A stretch of DNA of 64,000 nt. Source: Fibrobacter sp. (GTDB lineage Bacteria > Fibrobacterota > Fibrobacteria > Fibrobacterales > Fibrobacteraceae). A program made the position numbers and the translations under genes. The notes below the pieces were generated by a model, which did not search any database, had not been told where the DNA came from, and saw nothing but the letters and a program-made list of their open reading frames with translations. Of the stretch, positions 451-12,507 are shown piece by piece. Numbering within the stretch: position 1 is the first letter of the stretch; each line of letters begins with the position of its first letter. Location of the stretch: positions 1 to 64,000 of the forward strand of contig JAGCPZ010000062.1 in assembly GCA_017965445.1 (NCBI GenBank). The letters run 5' to 3'.

Positions 451-1299
451 ATGCTCTTAAAAAAATCTTGCCTACTCGCATCCATCATTTTAGCGCTCTC
501 TGCGAGCGCCTTCGCACAATCCGATGACGATGAATGGATTTCTGCCGATTCCCCTAGTTCTTCAACAACAAGCAACTCCTCCACAGGTTCATACGACGGG
601 ACTTCCGACAGCGAATTTGCAAACGACGAAGAATACGCAAGCGCATATGCAAGGTACAAGACGCAAACCACTTCGCGTTCCGAAATCAGCAAGCAGCGCA
701 GTGAAGGATTTTCTCAGTCCGTGTTCCTCGGAGCGCGCATCCAAGGTGGCTACAATACGTTCCTCGGCTCCAATTCCGATGGCTGGGGTGCAGGTTGGAA
801 TGCCGGTGCAGGTCTTATCATCAAAATTTCGATGTTCACAAAGAACTTCAGCCTTGTCCCAGAACTCACGTTCAACTACCGCCAGTACTTTTACGAAAAA
901 AACATGGAAGTTTACACGAACAAGGCAAAGCTCAATATTATGTTATTCGAGCTTCCGATTATGTTCCGCTACACTTTCGACCAGTATGATTTCTTTGCAG
1001 CAGCAGGTTTGCACCTGGGACTTAAGTTGATGGGCGATACGGAATTCACTTCTGAAGCCAACGGTGGCGTTGTCGCAAACAACACGACCAAGAGCACGAA
1101 CACATTCGTTTCAACGAATATGGAAGTAGGCCTCGCCATTGAAGGCGGCTACATGCTCACGAGAAACACGCACATAAATCTCCGCATAGTCCAATGCTTT
1201 ACGAATCTTCTGAACCAAGGCCTGACAGTGGAACCGTCCTTTACGAATTCCACGCTCCTCACGTTCTACACAAACCTCGGTATTTCGTTCTTGTTCTAG
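451..1299 (+). CDS. Outer-membrane beta-barrel protein (porin/PorT-like)
   Basis: 282 aa. Residues 1-22 are a signal peptide (hydrophobic core, cleavage after AFA). Residues 24-60 are an acidic Ser/Thr-rich linker. From about residue 90 the protein shows the alternating aromatic/hydrophobic strands of an outer-membrane beta-barrel and ends in Phe (GISFLF), the usual C-terminal residue recognised by the BAM machinery. Likely an outer-membrane barrel of the 'outer membrane protein beta-barrel domain' type; ligand unknown. It is monocistronic, with a hairpin terminator right behind it. The start codon has no Shine-Dalgarno sequence but lies 6 nt behind a perfect TATAAT, so the transcript may be leaderless. 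Confidence 0.8.
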   Translation: MLLKKSCLLASIILALSASAFAQSDDDEWISADSPSSSTTSNSSTGSYDGTSDSEFANDEEYASAYARYKTQTTSRSEISKQRSEGFSQSVFLGARIQGGYNTFLGSNSDGWGAGWNAGAGLIIKISMFTKNFSLVPELTFNYRQYFYEKNMEVYTNKAKLNIMLFELPIMFRYTFDQYDFFAAAGLHLGLKLMGDTEFTSEANGGVVANNTTKSTNTFVSTNMEVGLAIEGGYMLTRNTHINLRIVQCFTNLLNQGLTVEPSFTNSTLLTFYTNLGISFLF

Positions 1300-8548: not shown

Positions 8549-8570
8549 CAAAAAACTGTAATAAACTAGC

Positions 8571-8602
8571 AAAATCGGCCCAATCGGACCGATTTTGTTT
8601 TT
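8571..8602 (+). terminator. Intrinsic terminator of metH
   Basis: AAAATCGG and CCGATTTT form a hairpin with inner GG/CC pairs, followed by TTTTG and more T residues, 22 bp after the metH stop codon. Confidence 0.8.
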
Positions 8603-8606
8603 ATAA

Positions 8607-8666
8607 AGATACCTGGCTGTTGACGGATTCTATTTCATTGGAATCCGCGACTCTGGTCGCAAAGTA
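8607..8666 (-). pseudogene. 20-codon relic of a second Rpn-family gene
   Basis: Directly after the stop codon of the Rpn gene (8667-9449), and in frame with it, the next 20 codons read YFATRVADSNEIESVNSQVS. Residues of the intact gene around 8860-8925 read YFATRNADSSEAETIKSQVA, 13 of 20 identical. The fragment is therefore the leftover of a paralogous copy, probably a tandem duplication lost by recombination. The remnant ends where the metH terminator begins. Confidence 0.7.
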
Positions 8667-9449
8667 CTAAAGAGCCTTGATTTCCTCAATGGATAGCCCT
8701 GAACTGCGAGAAATGATATCCAGAGAAACGCCGTCATCACGCAATTTGCGCGCCATTTCGCGGGCTTTTTCTACCTTTCCCGCTTCCTTGCTTTCGTGAA
8801 GATCATATTCGTAAGTCATATATTTGTTCCTTATGAAAGTGTCGGTCTTGTAGAAGGCCACTTGGCTTTTGATGGTTTCAGCTTCGCTGGAGTCAGCGTT
8901 TCTGGTCGCAAAGTATTTCATGTAGGCTTTTACGACCGGGTCCTTGAATTCCTCGTACTTTGTAAATATATAAAAGTTTTTGAAAGTGAGGTCATTCAAA
9001 GTGATTTCCGGATTTTCCCGTGCTCTGTTCTCAAAATGATAAACAGGATATCCGTGCCCGAAAATGTCCATGGGACAAAGAAAGATGACATACTGTTCTC
9101 TGAGACTGGTGTAGAAATCGCCCTTGGAGAGAGCTACGCCATCACATACGCTCTGGTAATACCTTGCCCTTTGAGGAAGTTCCTTGGTGTCAACCATCTG
9201 CATTTCCAAATCGAAGGAACGGATTGTCGCCCCATTTTCGTTAGTCTCACGTGCGAAGACGTCGTAGCGGACCCCCTTGTGCTCCGCGTCGTAACTAAGC
9301 ACCGCTTCTGGTGTCGGGGTTTCGAGATGGTCGATTTCGATGCCGAGTAGATGTTCGATAAAAGGTTTGGCAATATGCGTATTACTGAAAACTAACCCGA
9401 ACATAATCGGGTCCGTAATGTCGAGATCGTCAAAAGGCTTGATGCTCAT
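8667..9449 (-). CDS. Rpn-family PD-(D/E)XK nuclease / putative transposase
   Basis: 260 aa. N-terminal PD-(D/E)XK nuclease fold of the Rpn (recombination-promoting nuclease, 'putative transposase YhgA-like') type: DITDPIMFGLVFSN at the start, then the active-site pattern YDVFA ... FDLEMQ. The C-terminus is a helical tail ending in GLSIEEIKAL, typical of the family. Related proteins cleave DNA and promote RecA-independent recombination. The start has an AGGAGC Shine-Dalgarno sequence, but this lies inside a hairpin (9457-9486) that could hide it. A relic of a second copy sits directly behind the stop codon. Confidence 0.85.
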   Translation of the reverse strand: MSIKPFDDLDITDPIMFGLVFSNTHIAKPFIEHLLGIEIDHLETPTPEAVLSYDAEHKGVRYDVFARETNENGATIRSFDLEMQMVDTKELPQRARYYQSVCDGVALSKGDFYTSLREQYVIFLCPMDIFGHGYPVYHFENRARENPEITLNDLTFKNFYIFTKYEEFKDPVVKAYMKYFATRNADSSEAETIKSQVAFYKTDTFIRNKYMTYEYDLHESKEAGKVEKAREMARKLRDDGVSLDIISRSSGLSIEEIKAL

Positions 9450-9456
9450 TTATAAG

Positions 9457-9486
9457 CTCCTGTTTTTTGTGGCTTGCAAACAGGAG
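9457..9486 (-). promoter_or_regulatory. 5'-UTR hairpin covering the Rpn ribosome binding site
   Basis: On the minus strand, CTCCTGTTT pairs perfectly (9 bp) with AAACAGGAG, and the AGGAG of the second arm is the Shine-Dalgarno sequence of the gene starting at 9449. The fold would mask translation initiation, a known way to keep nuclease or transposase genes silent. Confidence 0.5.
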
Positions 9487-9552
9487 ATGAGCTCATACAA
9501 CGCAGAACACCGGTTCACAAACCTGTTAATGACAGATTAATGATCCCACTTG

Positions 9553-9760
9553 CTATTTGCAGTGGGGGTGCTCTACGTTGATCGCCAGGGGGCCAGTTTC
9601 CCCATAGGGTGTCTGCCTCGATTTTTTCGCCTGTCTAGCGGAACAAAGGGAGGTCGGCGTCAAGCAGATAGTGGAACAACCTGCCCGGAACGAATGCCAA
9701 GTCGGCAGGACGAATGCTATCGTGAATGAATATACAATTATAGGAGCTGCAAGGCAATAG
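9553..9760 (+). ncRNA. Candidate structured RNA of ~208 nt (6S-like architecture possible)
   Basis: A GC-rich stretch in AT-rich surroundings without a convincing gene. CTATTTGCAG (9553-9562) pairs with CTGCA + AATAG (9747-9760; 4-nt bulge), closing the whole element. Inside are CCTGCC/GGCAGG, GGGG/CCCC and GTGTCTGC with GCAGATA, the last including a G-U pair that works only on the plus strand. GGGGGCCAGTTTCCCC lies about 27 nt from the 5' end, resembling the GGGCCAGTCCCC segment at the same place in E. coli 6S RNA. A TTCACA-17-TTAATG promoter-like pair lies at 9514-9542. Identity as 6S RNA is only a suggestion. Confidence 0.4.
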
Positions 9761-9889
9761 GTCGCTTTGCACTCCAATTCGAGACAATCCTATTATTGAA
9801 AATGAGCGTTTTTTCACAATTTTAAATGAAAATTGCGTCCATCTGTAAATTTCTTGCACTAAAAACCGTTTTTTAAGTTAATTTTATCT

Positions 9890-10146
9890 CTGAAAATAGA
9901 GAGTTTAGCTCTTGTTCTCCATACGAAATCTCGACAATTTCAGGAAAGCGAGGACGAGGCGAACGCTCACGCGGATATGCCGTTTTGCGGTATATCTCAG
10001 TTTGCTATGCCGACTACTCAGTCGGTCTTTGGTCATGCAGACCAAGGGCAACAGCCCTTATGGGGCGTGGGTCGTTTGTGTTTATCGCTTTAAGGCTGTC
10101 GAGAGCCTCGTATGGATAAATGCAACGATCTACGCCCTTTTTTGTT
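9890..10146 (+). ncRNA. Highly structured candidate ncRNA ending in a long terminator hairpin
   Basis: Consecutive hairpins can be read on the plus strand: GATATGCCG/CGGTATATC (9974-9996, one G-U), GCCGAC/GTCGGT (10009-10026), TTGGTC/GACCAA (around 10029-10045) and AGGGC/GCCCT. A stem of about 23 bp follows (10063-10086 with 10115-10137) that contains several G-U pairs and a nested GGCT/AGCC hairpin, then a T-rich tail. G-U pairs fix the strand. A promoter-like TTGCAC lies at 9854 with an AT-rich -10 region near 9878-9886. No reading frame is conserved-looking. I do not recognise it as RNase P, tmRNA, SRP RNA or a known riboswitch. Confidence 0.6.
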
Positions 10147-10191
10147 TTCTAACAAAATCGGTTTAAATCATTTCAGGACAGGGGAAAAACT

Positions 10192-10295
10192 CTAGGCATT
10201 ATGCCTAGTGGACTTTTGCAAATGCAAAAAACAGATTGCTTTGCCCCCTCGCGGTGCAATCTGCAAAAACCTGAGGGATATACTCTAGAGGTATA
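10192..10295. promoter_or_regulatory. Cluster of perfect dyads before the small-gene cassette
   Basis: Four inverted repeats lie within 104 bp: CTAGGCAT/ATGCCTAG (10192-10208), TTTTGCA/TGCAAAA (10214-10229), CAGATTGC/GCAATCTG (10232-10263) and the near-dyad TATACTC/GAGGTATA (10279-10295). The last overlaps the promoter and leader region of the gene at 10307. They could be operators, recombination sites or element ends; none has the T-run of a terminator. Confidence 0.45.
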
Positions 10296-10306
10296 AGAGG
10301 TATATA

Positions 10307-10447
10307 ATGAATGTTGAACATGAAATTAGAGAAATAAAAGAGCGAGTCGCCAAATTAACCAAACGAATTGAAGCTTTAGAAAATGAAAAAAACAAGGAAC
10401 AGCCTAATGTTCCCATCGCACCTGCGGTATCTGGGATTCGTTGTTAG
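10307..10447 (+). CDS. 46-aa coiled-coil microprotein
   Basis: 46 aa. The first 30 residues are a charged helix with heptad-like spacing (IREIKERVAKLTKRIEAL), followed by a Pro-rich tail (PNVPIAPAV). The ATG has AAGAGG 8 nt upstream, a fair ribosome binding site. AT-rich codon use matches the next three genes, which lie on the same strand with small gaps. No family was recognised. It is short enough to be chance, but the ribosome binding site, coiled-coil composition and position support it. Confidence 0.5.
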   Translation: MNVEHEIREIKERVAKLTKRIEALENEKNKEQPNVPIAPAVSGIRC

Positions 10448-10476
10448 AAAACACCAACTCAAAAAAAAGGAAAAAT

Positions 10477-10704
10477 ATGCCCAAATGTCCTCATTGTGGT
10501 GCTCAAGTTGACGCCGATGCAAAATTCTGCGGAGAATGCGGAGAATCCACTTCACAGGTAAAACAATGTGTTCAATGCGAAAAAGAAATTCCAGTCAAGG
10601 CAAAATTTTGCAAATATTGCGGTTTTGACCAGGACAAAGATCCCTTTGACTGGACACCATCCCCTCGCAATAAATCCAAAAAAGACCCATTTGATTGGTC
10701 CTAA
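10477..10704 (+). CDS. Double zinc-ribbon protein with duplicated DPFDW motif
   Basis: 75 aa from the ATG at 10477 (AAGGA 5-9 nt upstream). Two zinc ribbons: CPHCG ... CGECG (residues 4-18) and CVQCE ... CKYCG (about 30-48). The C-terminus carries the motif KDPFDW twice, DKDPFDWTP and KKDPFDWS, separated by a basic spacer. Zinc ribbons of this type bind nucleic acid or proteins; the repeated DPFDW tail looks like a short docking motif, which is inference. It stands 20 bp ahead of another zinc-finger gene, probably in one transcript. Confidence 0.8.
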   Translation: MPKCPHCGAQVDADAKFCGECGESTSQVKQCVQCEKEIPVKAKFCKYCGFDQDKDPFDWTPSPRNKSKKDPFDWS

Positions 10705-10724
10705 TCAAGAAAAAGGAGTCTACA

Positions 10725-11540
10725 ATGTCTAGAGAAAGAAAAGAAAATGTTTGGTGTTTCCACTGTAACAATACTGGAATTGAATATATAACTGAAGAAT
10801 ATCGCAATGGCGAATGGGTAACCATTAGTTCTGCGATTCCTGGTGGTTGGCATTACTATAAAGGCGGTTATTATCTTTGTTCAAAATGTTACAATGATCC
10901 TAAAGCACATAAGGAAATAAAAATTTCTAGAAAAACTGAGTTGAAAAAGAACTTACTTACAATTTTAGTTATGTCAATTGGATTTAGTCTTACAATCGCC
11001 ATTTGGTATTTCAGTAACGGCCAATATATCATGTATGGATTAATACCAACTATTTTAGCGTTACTTGCATGTGCATTTATCAAAGAAGGAATAAAAGGTG
11101 GATTAGGCTGTTCAGCAACATTAGTAATAGCTGTTGTTGCATACTTTTATTTTTTTCATGAAGACAATTCAAATACACCTCAAGATAATCCAAGCCCAAA
11201 TGAAATTTCTAAAACAGTTAAACAATCTGCGTACCTTAATGGGATAAGCGATATTTCTAACAATAGCGAATTAGGAAACTTCTATTTTGCCATTGCAAAT
11301 AATTTTTACCACAATGATATGGGACTGAAAGGAACACCAGAACAAATTGCCGCAGGCAATAAATTAATGGTTCGTGTCTATGATTTCTTAGGAACTTCTG
11401 CTAAAAAAGAACAAATGTTGAATGTTGACAGCATGAAATTTTTCATAAAGAATTACACACAAGTATCCGAATTTCGTAGGAAAAAAGCACTTGAAGAATT
11501 ACAACTTGGCATAAATAAAATTGAATCAATAAATAAATAG
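10725..11540 (+). CDS. Zinc-finger membrane protein, unknown function
   Basis: 271 aa from the ATG at 10725, preceded by AAAAAGGAG. Residues 11-14 (CFHC) and about 51-54 (CSKC) form a putative cytoplasmic zinc site. Two or three membrane helices follow (about 75-140, including a Gly-rich loop). The rest, about 150-271, is a helical, polar, probably extracytoplasmic domain beginning with an Asn/Pro-rich linker. No family was recognised. Strongly AT-rich codon use compared with the GC-richer genes on both sides suggests acquisition together with its neighbours. Confidence 0.7.
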   Translation: MSRERKENVWCFHCNNTGIEYITEEYRNGEWVTISSAIPGGWHYYKGGYYLCSKCYNDPKAHKEIKISRKTELKKNLLTILVMSIGFSLTIAIWYFSNGQYIMYGLIPTILALLACAFIKEGIKGGLGCSATLVIAVVAYFYFFHEDNSNTPQDNPSPNEISKTVKQSAYLNGISDISNNSELGNFYFAIANNFYHNDMGLKGTPEQIAAGNKLMVRVYDFLGTSAKKEQMLNVDSMKFFIKNYTQVSEFRRKKALEELQLGINKIESINK

Positions 11541-11585
11541 AATTGATTTAAATTTCAAAAAATGACATTTCCAATGCTGTAGATT

Positions 11586-12143
11586 ATGAAAAAACTACTC
11601 TTTCTCATTCTCGTTTTTTCAATCGCCGCAATCGCAGTTGTGACAGACAAAACGGTTGATCGAAAATTCTTGCAAATCTATTTGCGCTCTGGCAACTGGA
11701 ATACCGGAGATCGTTATTCCACTATTCCTGTCATCGTAAACGGAAAGAAAACTTGTCCGTATGTGGGAAGTATTTTTGCAGAGCCATACGATGAATTTAA
11801 CTGTCCAGATGTGACCATATACCATCTTGTTCATGTGAAAAGTGCGGAAAATGGACTGACATGCTACTACGATTATACCGTAGGCGGAGATTACATGTTT
11901 GTATTGAGTAATCAAAAGAACTGCCCAGACATTCTCGCAGCATACGACGGAATGAAGTTTTTCAAAGGCGTGTATTTTGATTCCGTTGATGATTACAGGC
12001 TTTATTATAGAGACACTTTGTTAACACAGACCTTCGAGGGTGACTTTACGAAATACCCAAAAGTGCAAGAACAAATCCGCTATAGACGCATCCACATGAG
12101 CAAAGACATAAAGAAAAGAGAAGTCATAAAATTTGGGAACTAA
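11586..12143 (+). CDS. Secreted or membrane-anchored protein, unknown
   Basis: 185 aa. An N-terminal hydrophobic segment (KKLLFLILVFSIAAIAVV) acts as a signal peptide or anchor. The remainder is a mixed alpha/beta domain with four Cys residues (near 57, 72, 91 and 112), which could form disulfides outside the cytoplasm. Last gene of the AT-rich cassette, 45 bp after the preceding one and convergent with the P-II-like gene at 12154. No known family was recognised. Confidence 0.7.
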   Translation: MKKLLFLILVFSIAAIAVVTDKTVDRKFLQIYLRSGNWNTGDRYSTIPVIVNGKKTCPYVGSIFAEPYDEFNCPDVTIYHLVHVKSAENGLTCYYDYTVGGDYMFVLSNQKNCPDILAAYDGMKFFKGVYFDSVDDYRLYYRDTLLTQTFEGDFTKYPKVQEQIRYRRIHMSKDIKKREVIKFGN

Positions 12144-12153
12144 TTTAAGTTCC

Positions 12154-12507
12154 TTACTTCTTCTCTTCCGGTTCCTTACGTTCCGTAGCCTTCCATGGCG
12201 TTAGGCCCACCACGTTATCGACCGGGAGCGAGAATGCAATCCCCTGCCCCATCGTATCGAGGCCAGCCTTTTCGTAAAGCGCGTGCAACACGGCATCCTT
12301 CACGTTTAGCGGCACAAGAATCATCACCACTTCTTTTTCGGGCTGGATTGCAATATGGAAGAACGATTCAGCTTCCTTGTTTGCAGTTCCACGAGCGTTC
12401 AACACCGTTCCGCCACGTGCACCGGCATCTTTCGCCGCATCCATCACAGTGTCGGAGAATCCGTTGTTCACAATACAAATAATGAGTTCGTGACTATTCG
12501 CAGCCAT
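12154..12507 (-). CDS. P-II-like regulatory protein 1
   Basis: 117 aa with the ferredoxin-like fold of P-II/GlnB relatives: beta1 ELIICIVNNG, a Gly-rich turn (DAGARGGTVLNARG), the EKEVVMILVP strand and a C-terminal GQGIAFSLPVDNVVGL motif. The long T-loop with the uridylylated Tyr of classical GlnB is absent, so this is a P-II-like, not a canonical nitrogen, sensor. Its ribosome binding site GGAGG is 6 nt upstream and overlaps the end of the gene before it (2-bp gap). Together with the next P-II-like gene and the DUF1538 transporter it forms an operon, so it probably gates that transporter in response to a nucleotide. Confidence 0.8.
   Translation of the reverse strand: MAANSHELIICIVNNGFSDTVMDAAKDAGARGGTVLNARGTANKEAESFFHIAIQPEKEVVMILVPLNVKDAVLHALYEKAGLDTMGQGIAFSLPVDNVVGLTPWKATERKEPEEKK

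Follow-up and report, generated by a model that had tools for sequence, protein, structure and literature searches.

Genome context of the leader

The window, i.e. the whole stretch of 64,000 nucleotides that was analysed, carries an accessory insertion between metH and a convergent gene (the features are collected in Table 1). The interval between the end of metH and this right-flank gene measures about 100-180 bp in G018, G062, G063, G084 and G089, and 3.6 kb in the window and in G088. An earlier note, made from the letters alone, had placed a structured RNA where an AT-rich accessory cassette begins, and this description holds in that the cargo (10147-12150) has a GC content of 35.8%, as compared to 55.9% for metH and 48.5% for the right side, and in that five related species lack 8549-12154 between metH and the next gene. 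The cargo recurs in the one syntenic relative of the window copy (L036). The window copy is slightly atypical, as a palindromic insert with the pattern GACTTTTGCAnnTGCAAAA ... CCCGC ... GCGGGATA separates the leader from the first gene.

Table 1. Coordinates of the features at the locus, of the leader strands and of the downstream repeat
Feature	Position	Strand	Remarks
Accessory insertion (PDDEXK_2 gene, leader, cargo)	8549..12154		between metH and convergent gene
PDDEXK_2 (Rpn-like) gene, divergent, upstream	8667..9449	-	PF12784; common to syntenic copy L036
AT-rich promoter-like stretch, TTTGTAAA ... TTTAAGTTATTTTTA	9843..9888	+	kept in 98-copy alignment
Leader RNA, U-run included	9892..10145	+	fold z -7.35; 98-copy alignment
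Strand 1 (GCUCUUGUUCUC)	9908..9919	+	pairs with strand 2 (predicted terminator state) or 10176-10185 (predicted readthrough state)
Outer 5' arm of putative antiterminator	9918..9951	+	partner 10085-10116; top covarying column pairs
Small GAAA...UUUC hairpin in 1:2 loop	9925..9941	+	predicted terminator state
Strand 2, inner 5' arm	9950..9972	+	partner strand 1 or strand 3 (X)
Central hairpins: 9973-9997; 10000-10052 with two sub-hairpins; 10055-10064	9973..10064	+	consensus fold
Strand 3 (X), switching strand	10062..10086	+	5' arm of predicted terminator, or antiterminator
Strand 4 and U-run (10138-10143), 3' arm of predicted terminator	10115..10143	+	helix 99.5% paired
Post-terminator segment	10144..10192	+	partners in predicted readthrough RNA: strands 4 and 1
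Extra palindromic insert between leader and first gene	10190..10275	+	similar in L039, L042, L047, L048, L090, L092
First cargo ORF, 46 aa, coiled-coil-like	10307..10447	+	
Cargo: double zinc-ribbon protein	10477..10704	+	PF13240/PF12773
Cargo: membrane protein, family not recognised	10725..11540	+	
Cargo: small protein, N-terminal signal-like sequence, family not recognised	11586..12143	+	
Examples of repeat GCGTTAGGGATAG...GGGGAACGCCC	L044 +4635, L053 +2468, L042 +3351, L038 +1671, from query start		

A strongly folded RNA that is not catalogued

The plus strand of 9890-10146 reaches a minimum free energy (MFE) of -106.7 kcal/mol, against -73.2 +/- 4.6 kcal/mol for 200 dinucleotide shuffles (z -7.35), none of which equalled it. 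The minus strand (-81.7 kcal/mol, z -4.73) is clearly weaker but above chance, so that the earlier claim that only the plus strand folds well stands as far as the superiority of the plus strand is concerned and not as regards the minus strand, which also does better than its shuffles. The MFE fold contains a run of short hairpins, behind which 10062-10086 and 10115-10138 form a 24-bp stem that encloses a GGC/GCC hairpin; a U-run occupies 10138-10143. The series of hairpins, the long terminal stem with its nested hairpin and the U-run that had been read from the sequence by eye are thus all present. At the gathering threshold no Rfam family (T-box, RNase P, tmRNA, SRP, 6S or any other) matched in the whole window, and at E<=1 none matched the leader element. 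The only weak match, to Hrs12 at 10182-10267, was rejected; it scores 28.9 versus a gathering score of 70 and lies downstream of the leader on the minus strand. Searches of titles and the beginnings of abstracts for riboswitches and leader RNAs of Fibrobacter returned nothing on this element. The designation as an unrecognised structured RNA was therefore apt, given the strong fold, the lack of an Rfam family and the many compensatory changes described below: the RNA is real and it is uncatalogued.

That the leader could instead be a coding gene, whether an unusual one or, as the earlier note had considered, a decayed one, hinges on its only long frame (84 aa, 9912-10166), which is open in the window copy. 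Of 97 copies, however, 65 have this frame closed before 40 codons are completed, the variation across the copies has no clear three-base periodicity, and the centre of the frame is replaced altogether in variant leaders; we give this reading practically no credence.

Distribution within the Fibrobacteraceae

BLAST searches with 9840-10180 recovered copies in 86 of the 111 genomes of the family Fibrobacteraceae. A covariance model built on the leader core (9960-10080) was positive in 80 of these 111 genomes, with 1-12 copies each and within 4 of the 11 genera, and turned up nothing further when applied to 168 genomes from the phylum. Fibrobacter intestinalis ATCC 43854 is among the carriers of several copies. 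When 84,980 species were scanned for an exact pattern, 98 stretches resulted; the matches listed all stem from records of Fibrobacter or Fibrobacteraceae/Fibrobacterales, except for two short contigs with the leader core that are labelled Bacteroidales (L205, L211) and are probably binning errors from Fibrobacter. A phage, plasmid or viral-contig origin was discarded, as none of these sets contained a match. Judged from these searches, the leader is a multi-copy RNA family that is confined to Fibrobacter and close relatives.

Two mutually exclusive conserved folds

The consensus structure that RNAalifold derives from the alignment is not the MFE fold, and joins the 5' arm to 10065-10116 by long-range pairing. 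We will refer to this pairing as the putative antiterminator and to the 24-bp stem as the predicted terminator. In a covariation scan that presupposes no structure the antiterminator pairs rank top (e.g. 9922-10112 and 9947-10089), and the top covarying pairs are standard pairs in 96-100% of the cases, across several base-pair types. Within an alignment of 71 copies, 97.4% of the cells of the antiterminator core (41 pairs) are paired, versus 83.2 +/- 0.4% after shuffling; 402 cells have changed on both sides, versus 114 shuffled, and the covariation amounts to 0.415, versus 0.151 shuffled and 0.04-0.07 when the partner is slid. Sliding the partner by 1-3 columns reduces the pairing to 33-48%. 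The compensatory changes in homologs from other Fibrobacter genomes for which the earlier note had proposed to look are hence there. The main helices of the outer antiterminator arm are 96-99% paired, with most pairs changed on both sides, and 9956-9972 is paired with strand 3 in 99.6% of the cells.

The predicted terminator helix is paired in 99.5% of the cells of the same alignment. The changes in this helix and in the 1:2 hairpin (98.6% paired) are mostly one-sided, between G-C and G-U, and the covariation support for the terminator helix is therefore weak in comparison with that for the antiterminator; its conservation could partly be a consequence of the conservation of the strands. A generic terminator scan does not flag the leader hairpin, which is excluded by the loop limit of that scan. 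The small hairpin within the 1:2 loop has GAAA/UUUC in 68 of the 71 copies and a compensatory GGAA/UUCC in the remaining three. Nearly all copies offer strand 10062-10086 a choice of two partners, and the terminator and antiterminator pairings, which exclude each other, are both kept in 97-99% of the cells. The fold seen at first is thus only half of the structure, and, as far as sequence comparison can tell, the better evolutionary support goes to the second, long-range fold that excludes it.

Pairings that involve the sequence beyond the terminator are kept in only 85-94% of the cells: the helix of strand 1 with 10176-10185 (P1) is paired in 86.7%, and the pairing of strand 4 and the 5' end with the sequence behind the U-run is present in 88.9%. 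In variant leaders the central hairpins are largely replaced whereas the switching strands are retained. Such a subfamily, as read from the sequences, has also changed its terminator in step, from GGGUCG/CGAUCU to GAGUUG/CAACUC. One variant leader with other central hairpins (L064, L153, L156-L158, L160, L161, L167) precedes cytosine DNA methylase or restriction-like genes in many genomes.

Position of the leader relative to the downstream genes

In an alignment of 98 copies the conservation extends from the AT-rich promoter-like stretch, which a consensus promoter scan does not recognise, to about 90 nt past the U-run, where it ends in a ribosome site and a start codon. The leader thus lies between a putative promoter and a gene on the same strand, and such a gene follows essentially every copy. 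The distance from the closing CGCC of the predicted terminator to the first start codon is mostly 78-91 nt; in about a quarter of the copies, that of the window included, the next gene is more than 100 nt away. When only Watson-Crick pairs are counted, a ribosome-site stem of at least 6 pairs is present in 30 of 78 copies, versus 2.2 expected by shuffling, with variants that include CUCCAU/AUGGAG and CCUCUU/AAGAGG; a version of the test that permits G-U pairs gave 53 of 78 by chance and is uninformative.

Multi-copy trans-acting small RNAs exist, and the terminator-like hairpin with its U-run and the concentration of structure before that U-run would suit an independent RNA of this kind, for which the downstream genes are mere neighbours. 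Against such an RNA speak the conservation, which extends 50-90 nt beyond the U-run and takes in a ribosome site and, at a fixed distance, a start codon, the second conserved fold that lacks a terminator, and the same-strand gene behind essentially every copy. Because of the fixed spacing and the conservation beyond the U-run we consider an independent small RNA distinctly improbable and a leader of the downstream genes the likelier reading.

The first downstream proteins of 99 copies fall into 46 unrelated clusters. In the largest cluster (32 members) most proteins carry the Fibrobacter succinogenes major domain (PF09603), which was found in 9 of the 10 members checked, in one of these just below the family score cut-off. 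Other first genes encode zinc-ribbon/TM2, 8xMP, DUF2971 and Band 7 proteins, a UvrD helicase with a PDDEXK nuclease and a cytosine DNA methylase, and PADLOC recognises a few defence-like members among 40 representative first genes. By a simple rule, half of 82 first genes encode a lipobox or a hydrophobic N-terminus. The second genes at L049, L069, L072 and L098 encode large secreted proteins that start with ...AAAWTGS.SEPENMKKIDGK.FYVITTADELAWFA... and that recur behind different small first genes.

The earlier note had offered three roles for the RNA. That of a cassette regulator is supported by the compensatory changes and by its fixed position as the 5' leader of accessory genes. The other two find no backing in a set of 46 unrelated downstream families, as these leave neither a fixed toxin partner for an antitoxin-like RNA (a type III antitoxin RNA requires one toxin family) nor a fixed nuclease partner for a guide-type RNA. 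A retron ncRNA was likewise dismissed, as no reverse transcriptase domain was present in Pfam among the 40 representative first downstream genes.

Exchange of cargo behind orthologous leaders

Nineteen groups of copies have homologous upstream flanks, and the first gene differs in 57 of the 66 pairs with a homologous upstream flank and is the same in only 9. At a site next to a gene that we recognised by eye as presumably ffh, six genomes share the flank and the leader and carry six different cargos. When whole loci are compared, an identity of 89-97% persists through the leader, is then lost, and is regained 2-5 kb further on. In several pairs the two leaders match at about 100% as far as CGCC, directly after which the identity falls (L093/L089 0.62, L123/L059b 0.71, L042/L043 0.81, L107/L098 0.62), and in other pairs of loci the break lies at +60 to +85; typically it is found at the U-run or the start codon. 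The post-terminator segment moves along with the cargo in several syntenic comparisons. The same ffh-adjacent site carries inserts without a leader in the close relative G018 (a short one, L287, which by eye we take to be a toxin-antitoxin pair) and in G059 (a long one, L288), and it is therefore a general insertion hotspot. Upstream of the leader in locus L084 a match to the DUF3800-XI RNA family was observed (803-849, minus strand).

A repeat of the form GCGTTAGGGATAG ... GCCCGACCC ... GGGGAACGCCC, of about 100-250 bp and strand-oriented, often follows directly after a stop codon. Downstream of leaders there are 36 instances, in the orientation of the leader and never in reverse. Exact copies number 1-8 per genome, and the repeat is likewise present at accessory genes that lack a leader. 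As it occurs far from leaders too, it was rejected as a system partner of the leader.

These observations could be taken to mean that the leader is primarily the DNA recombination end of an integron-like gene-cassette system and that the RNA structure is secondary, considering that cargo is exchanged behind it, that identity often breaks exactly at CGCC/U-run, and that the right boundary often starts with the above repeat beside the stop codon of the cargo. Integrons, too, have an expression site that stays in place and promoterless cargo that can be exchanged. The break points at +60 to +85, the repeats away from leaders and the compensatory changes in long-range RNA helices, which a DNA site alone would not lead one to expect, nevertheless speak against it. 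Moreover, the leader sites hold one cargo and not an array, the element is an RNA leader, the boundary repeat does not by eye fit the attC core, and no recombinase or integrase was recognised by eye among the upstream neighbours examined, nor an integrase in the flanks looked at, where the neighbours appear by eye to be mostly housekeeping genes (presumably ffh, metH, thrS and ileS, for example). We therefore hold a primary role as recombination end to be unlikely. The exchange may stem from homologous recombination within the leader and within other sequence that the loci share.

A putative bistable attenuator

With each helix enforced in turn and the RNA ending at the U-run, the mean energy over the 71 copies is -97.5 kcal/mol for the antiterminator and -98.2 kcal/mol for the terminator, i.e. 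a difference of 0.7 +/- 4.0 kcal/mol, which in 42 of the 71 copies is at most 3 kcal/mol in either direction. For the full leader the antiterminator is favoured by 6.8 kcal/mol on average. Stepwise equilibrium folding of three copies produced the 1:2 pairing first and 2:3 next; in two of these copies terminator and antiterminator compete once the U-run is reached. Since the two states are nearly equal in energy, the leader has the look of a bistable transcription attenuator. On the basis of the conserved pairings, the folding calculations, the spacing to the start codon, the ribosome-site stems and the diversity and exchange of the cargo we consider it very probable that the leader is a cis-acting 5' element of this type, with the order promoter, bistable attenuator, in most copies a ribosome-site hairpin, and then exchangeable accessory genes.

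In the mechanism we propose, strand 1 would pair first with strand 2 as the RNA polymerase advances. The emerging strand 3 could then displace strand 1 and pair with strand 2, so that the long-range antiterminator forms and readthrough results (ON), or it could wait for strand 4, in which case the long hairpin before the U-run would act as terminator (OFF). As both states are near equal in energy at the U-run, a modest signal, be it a ligand, a protein, pausing or another RNA, could be enough to decide between them. Once the polymerase has read through, sequence downstream of the U-run would be bound by strand 4 and by the 5' end. The segment that otherwise masks the Shine-Dalgarno sequence is a possible partner of the 5' end, so that the ribosome site may become accessible in the ON state as well; dual control, of both transcription and translation, is therefore possible. 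We infer termination itself, as well as the switch, its signal and the translational control.

Relation to known leader systems

The proposed attenuator resembles those of the trp type in its four ordered strands with alternating pairing, the terminator-like 3:4 hairpin and the 2:3 antiterminator. It differs from them in that its antiterminator spans about 190 nt as a long-range rod with several hairpins inside it, in that one leader type serves dozens of unrelated genes, and in that a conserved leader peptide is lacking: no conserved frame runs through strand 1, and only two ATG columns exceed 50%, both of which lie inside paired strands. With riboswitches that control many genes (e.g. the c-di-GMP classes) it has in common that a structured leader with two exclusive folds is combined with a platform of predicted terminator and ribosome-site hairpin. 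Unlike these, it has no match in Rfam, and variant leaders, which retain the switching strands, have largely exchanged the central part, in which an aptamer would be expected. The replaceability of the central hairpins argues against a central aptamer; the conserved leader strands could bind a ligand.

EAR and put RNAs, and LoaP- or RfaH-dependent operons, likewise have leader elements at the head of horizontally variable operons. Given that the leader also stands at the start of such operons and that the primary sequence of its switching strands is highly conserved, it might be a processive antitermination element (like EAR, put or the target of LoaP) that modifies the RNA polymerase for long foreign operons. 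We deem this unlikely. The leader contains its own predicted, mutually exclusive terminator, as simple attenuators do and as EAR and put do not need; many of its cargos are single short genes, the EAR family of Rfam is not matched in the window, and there is no evidence for modification of the polymerase.

Implications

Closely related species keep the leader in place and exchange the genes behind it, so that, on comparative grounds, it looks like a shared control point of the changeable gene pool of this genus of gut bacteria. A tentative extension, to which we assign somewhat less than an even chance, is that the leaders constitute genus-wide expression sites, in which one bistable leader, responding to one signal, is retained at its chromosomal sites, and unrelated accessory genes that are swapped in fall at once under the same RNA control. 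Under this extension, and with the same reserve, the swapped genes would be those for secreted FISUMP lipoproteins, membrane proteins and defence-like proteins. Regulatory RNAs normally belong to a pathway, whereas this leader belongs to a location at which the downstream genes vary. Provided that the switch operates as proposed, a single signal would govern a sizeable part of the variable gene pool of Fibrobacter, which would include the FISUMP lipoproteins typical of these fibre degraders, as well as phage-defence-like genes. The leader would thereby provide a direct handle on the long-standing question of how newly acquired genes are brought under control.
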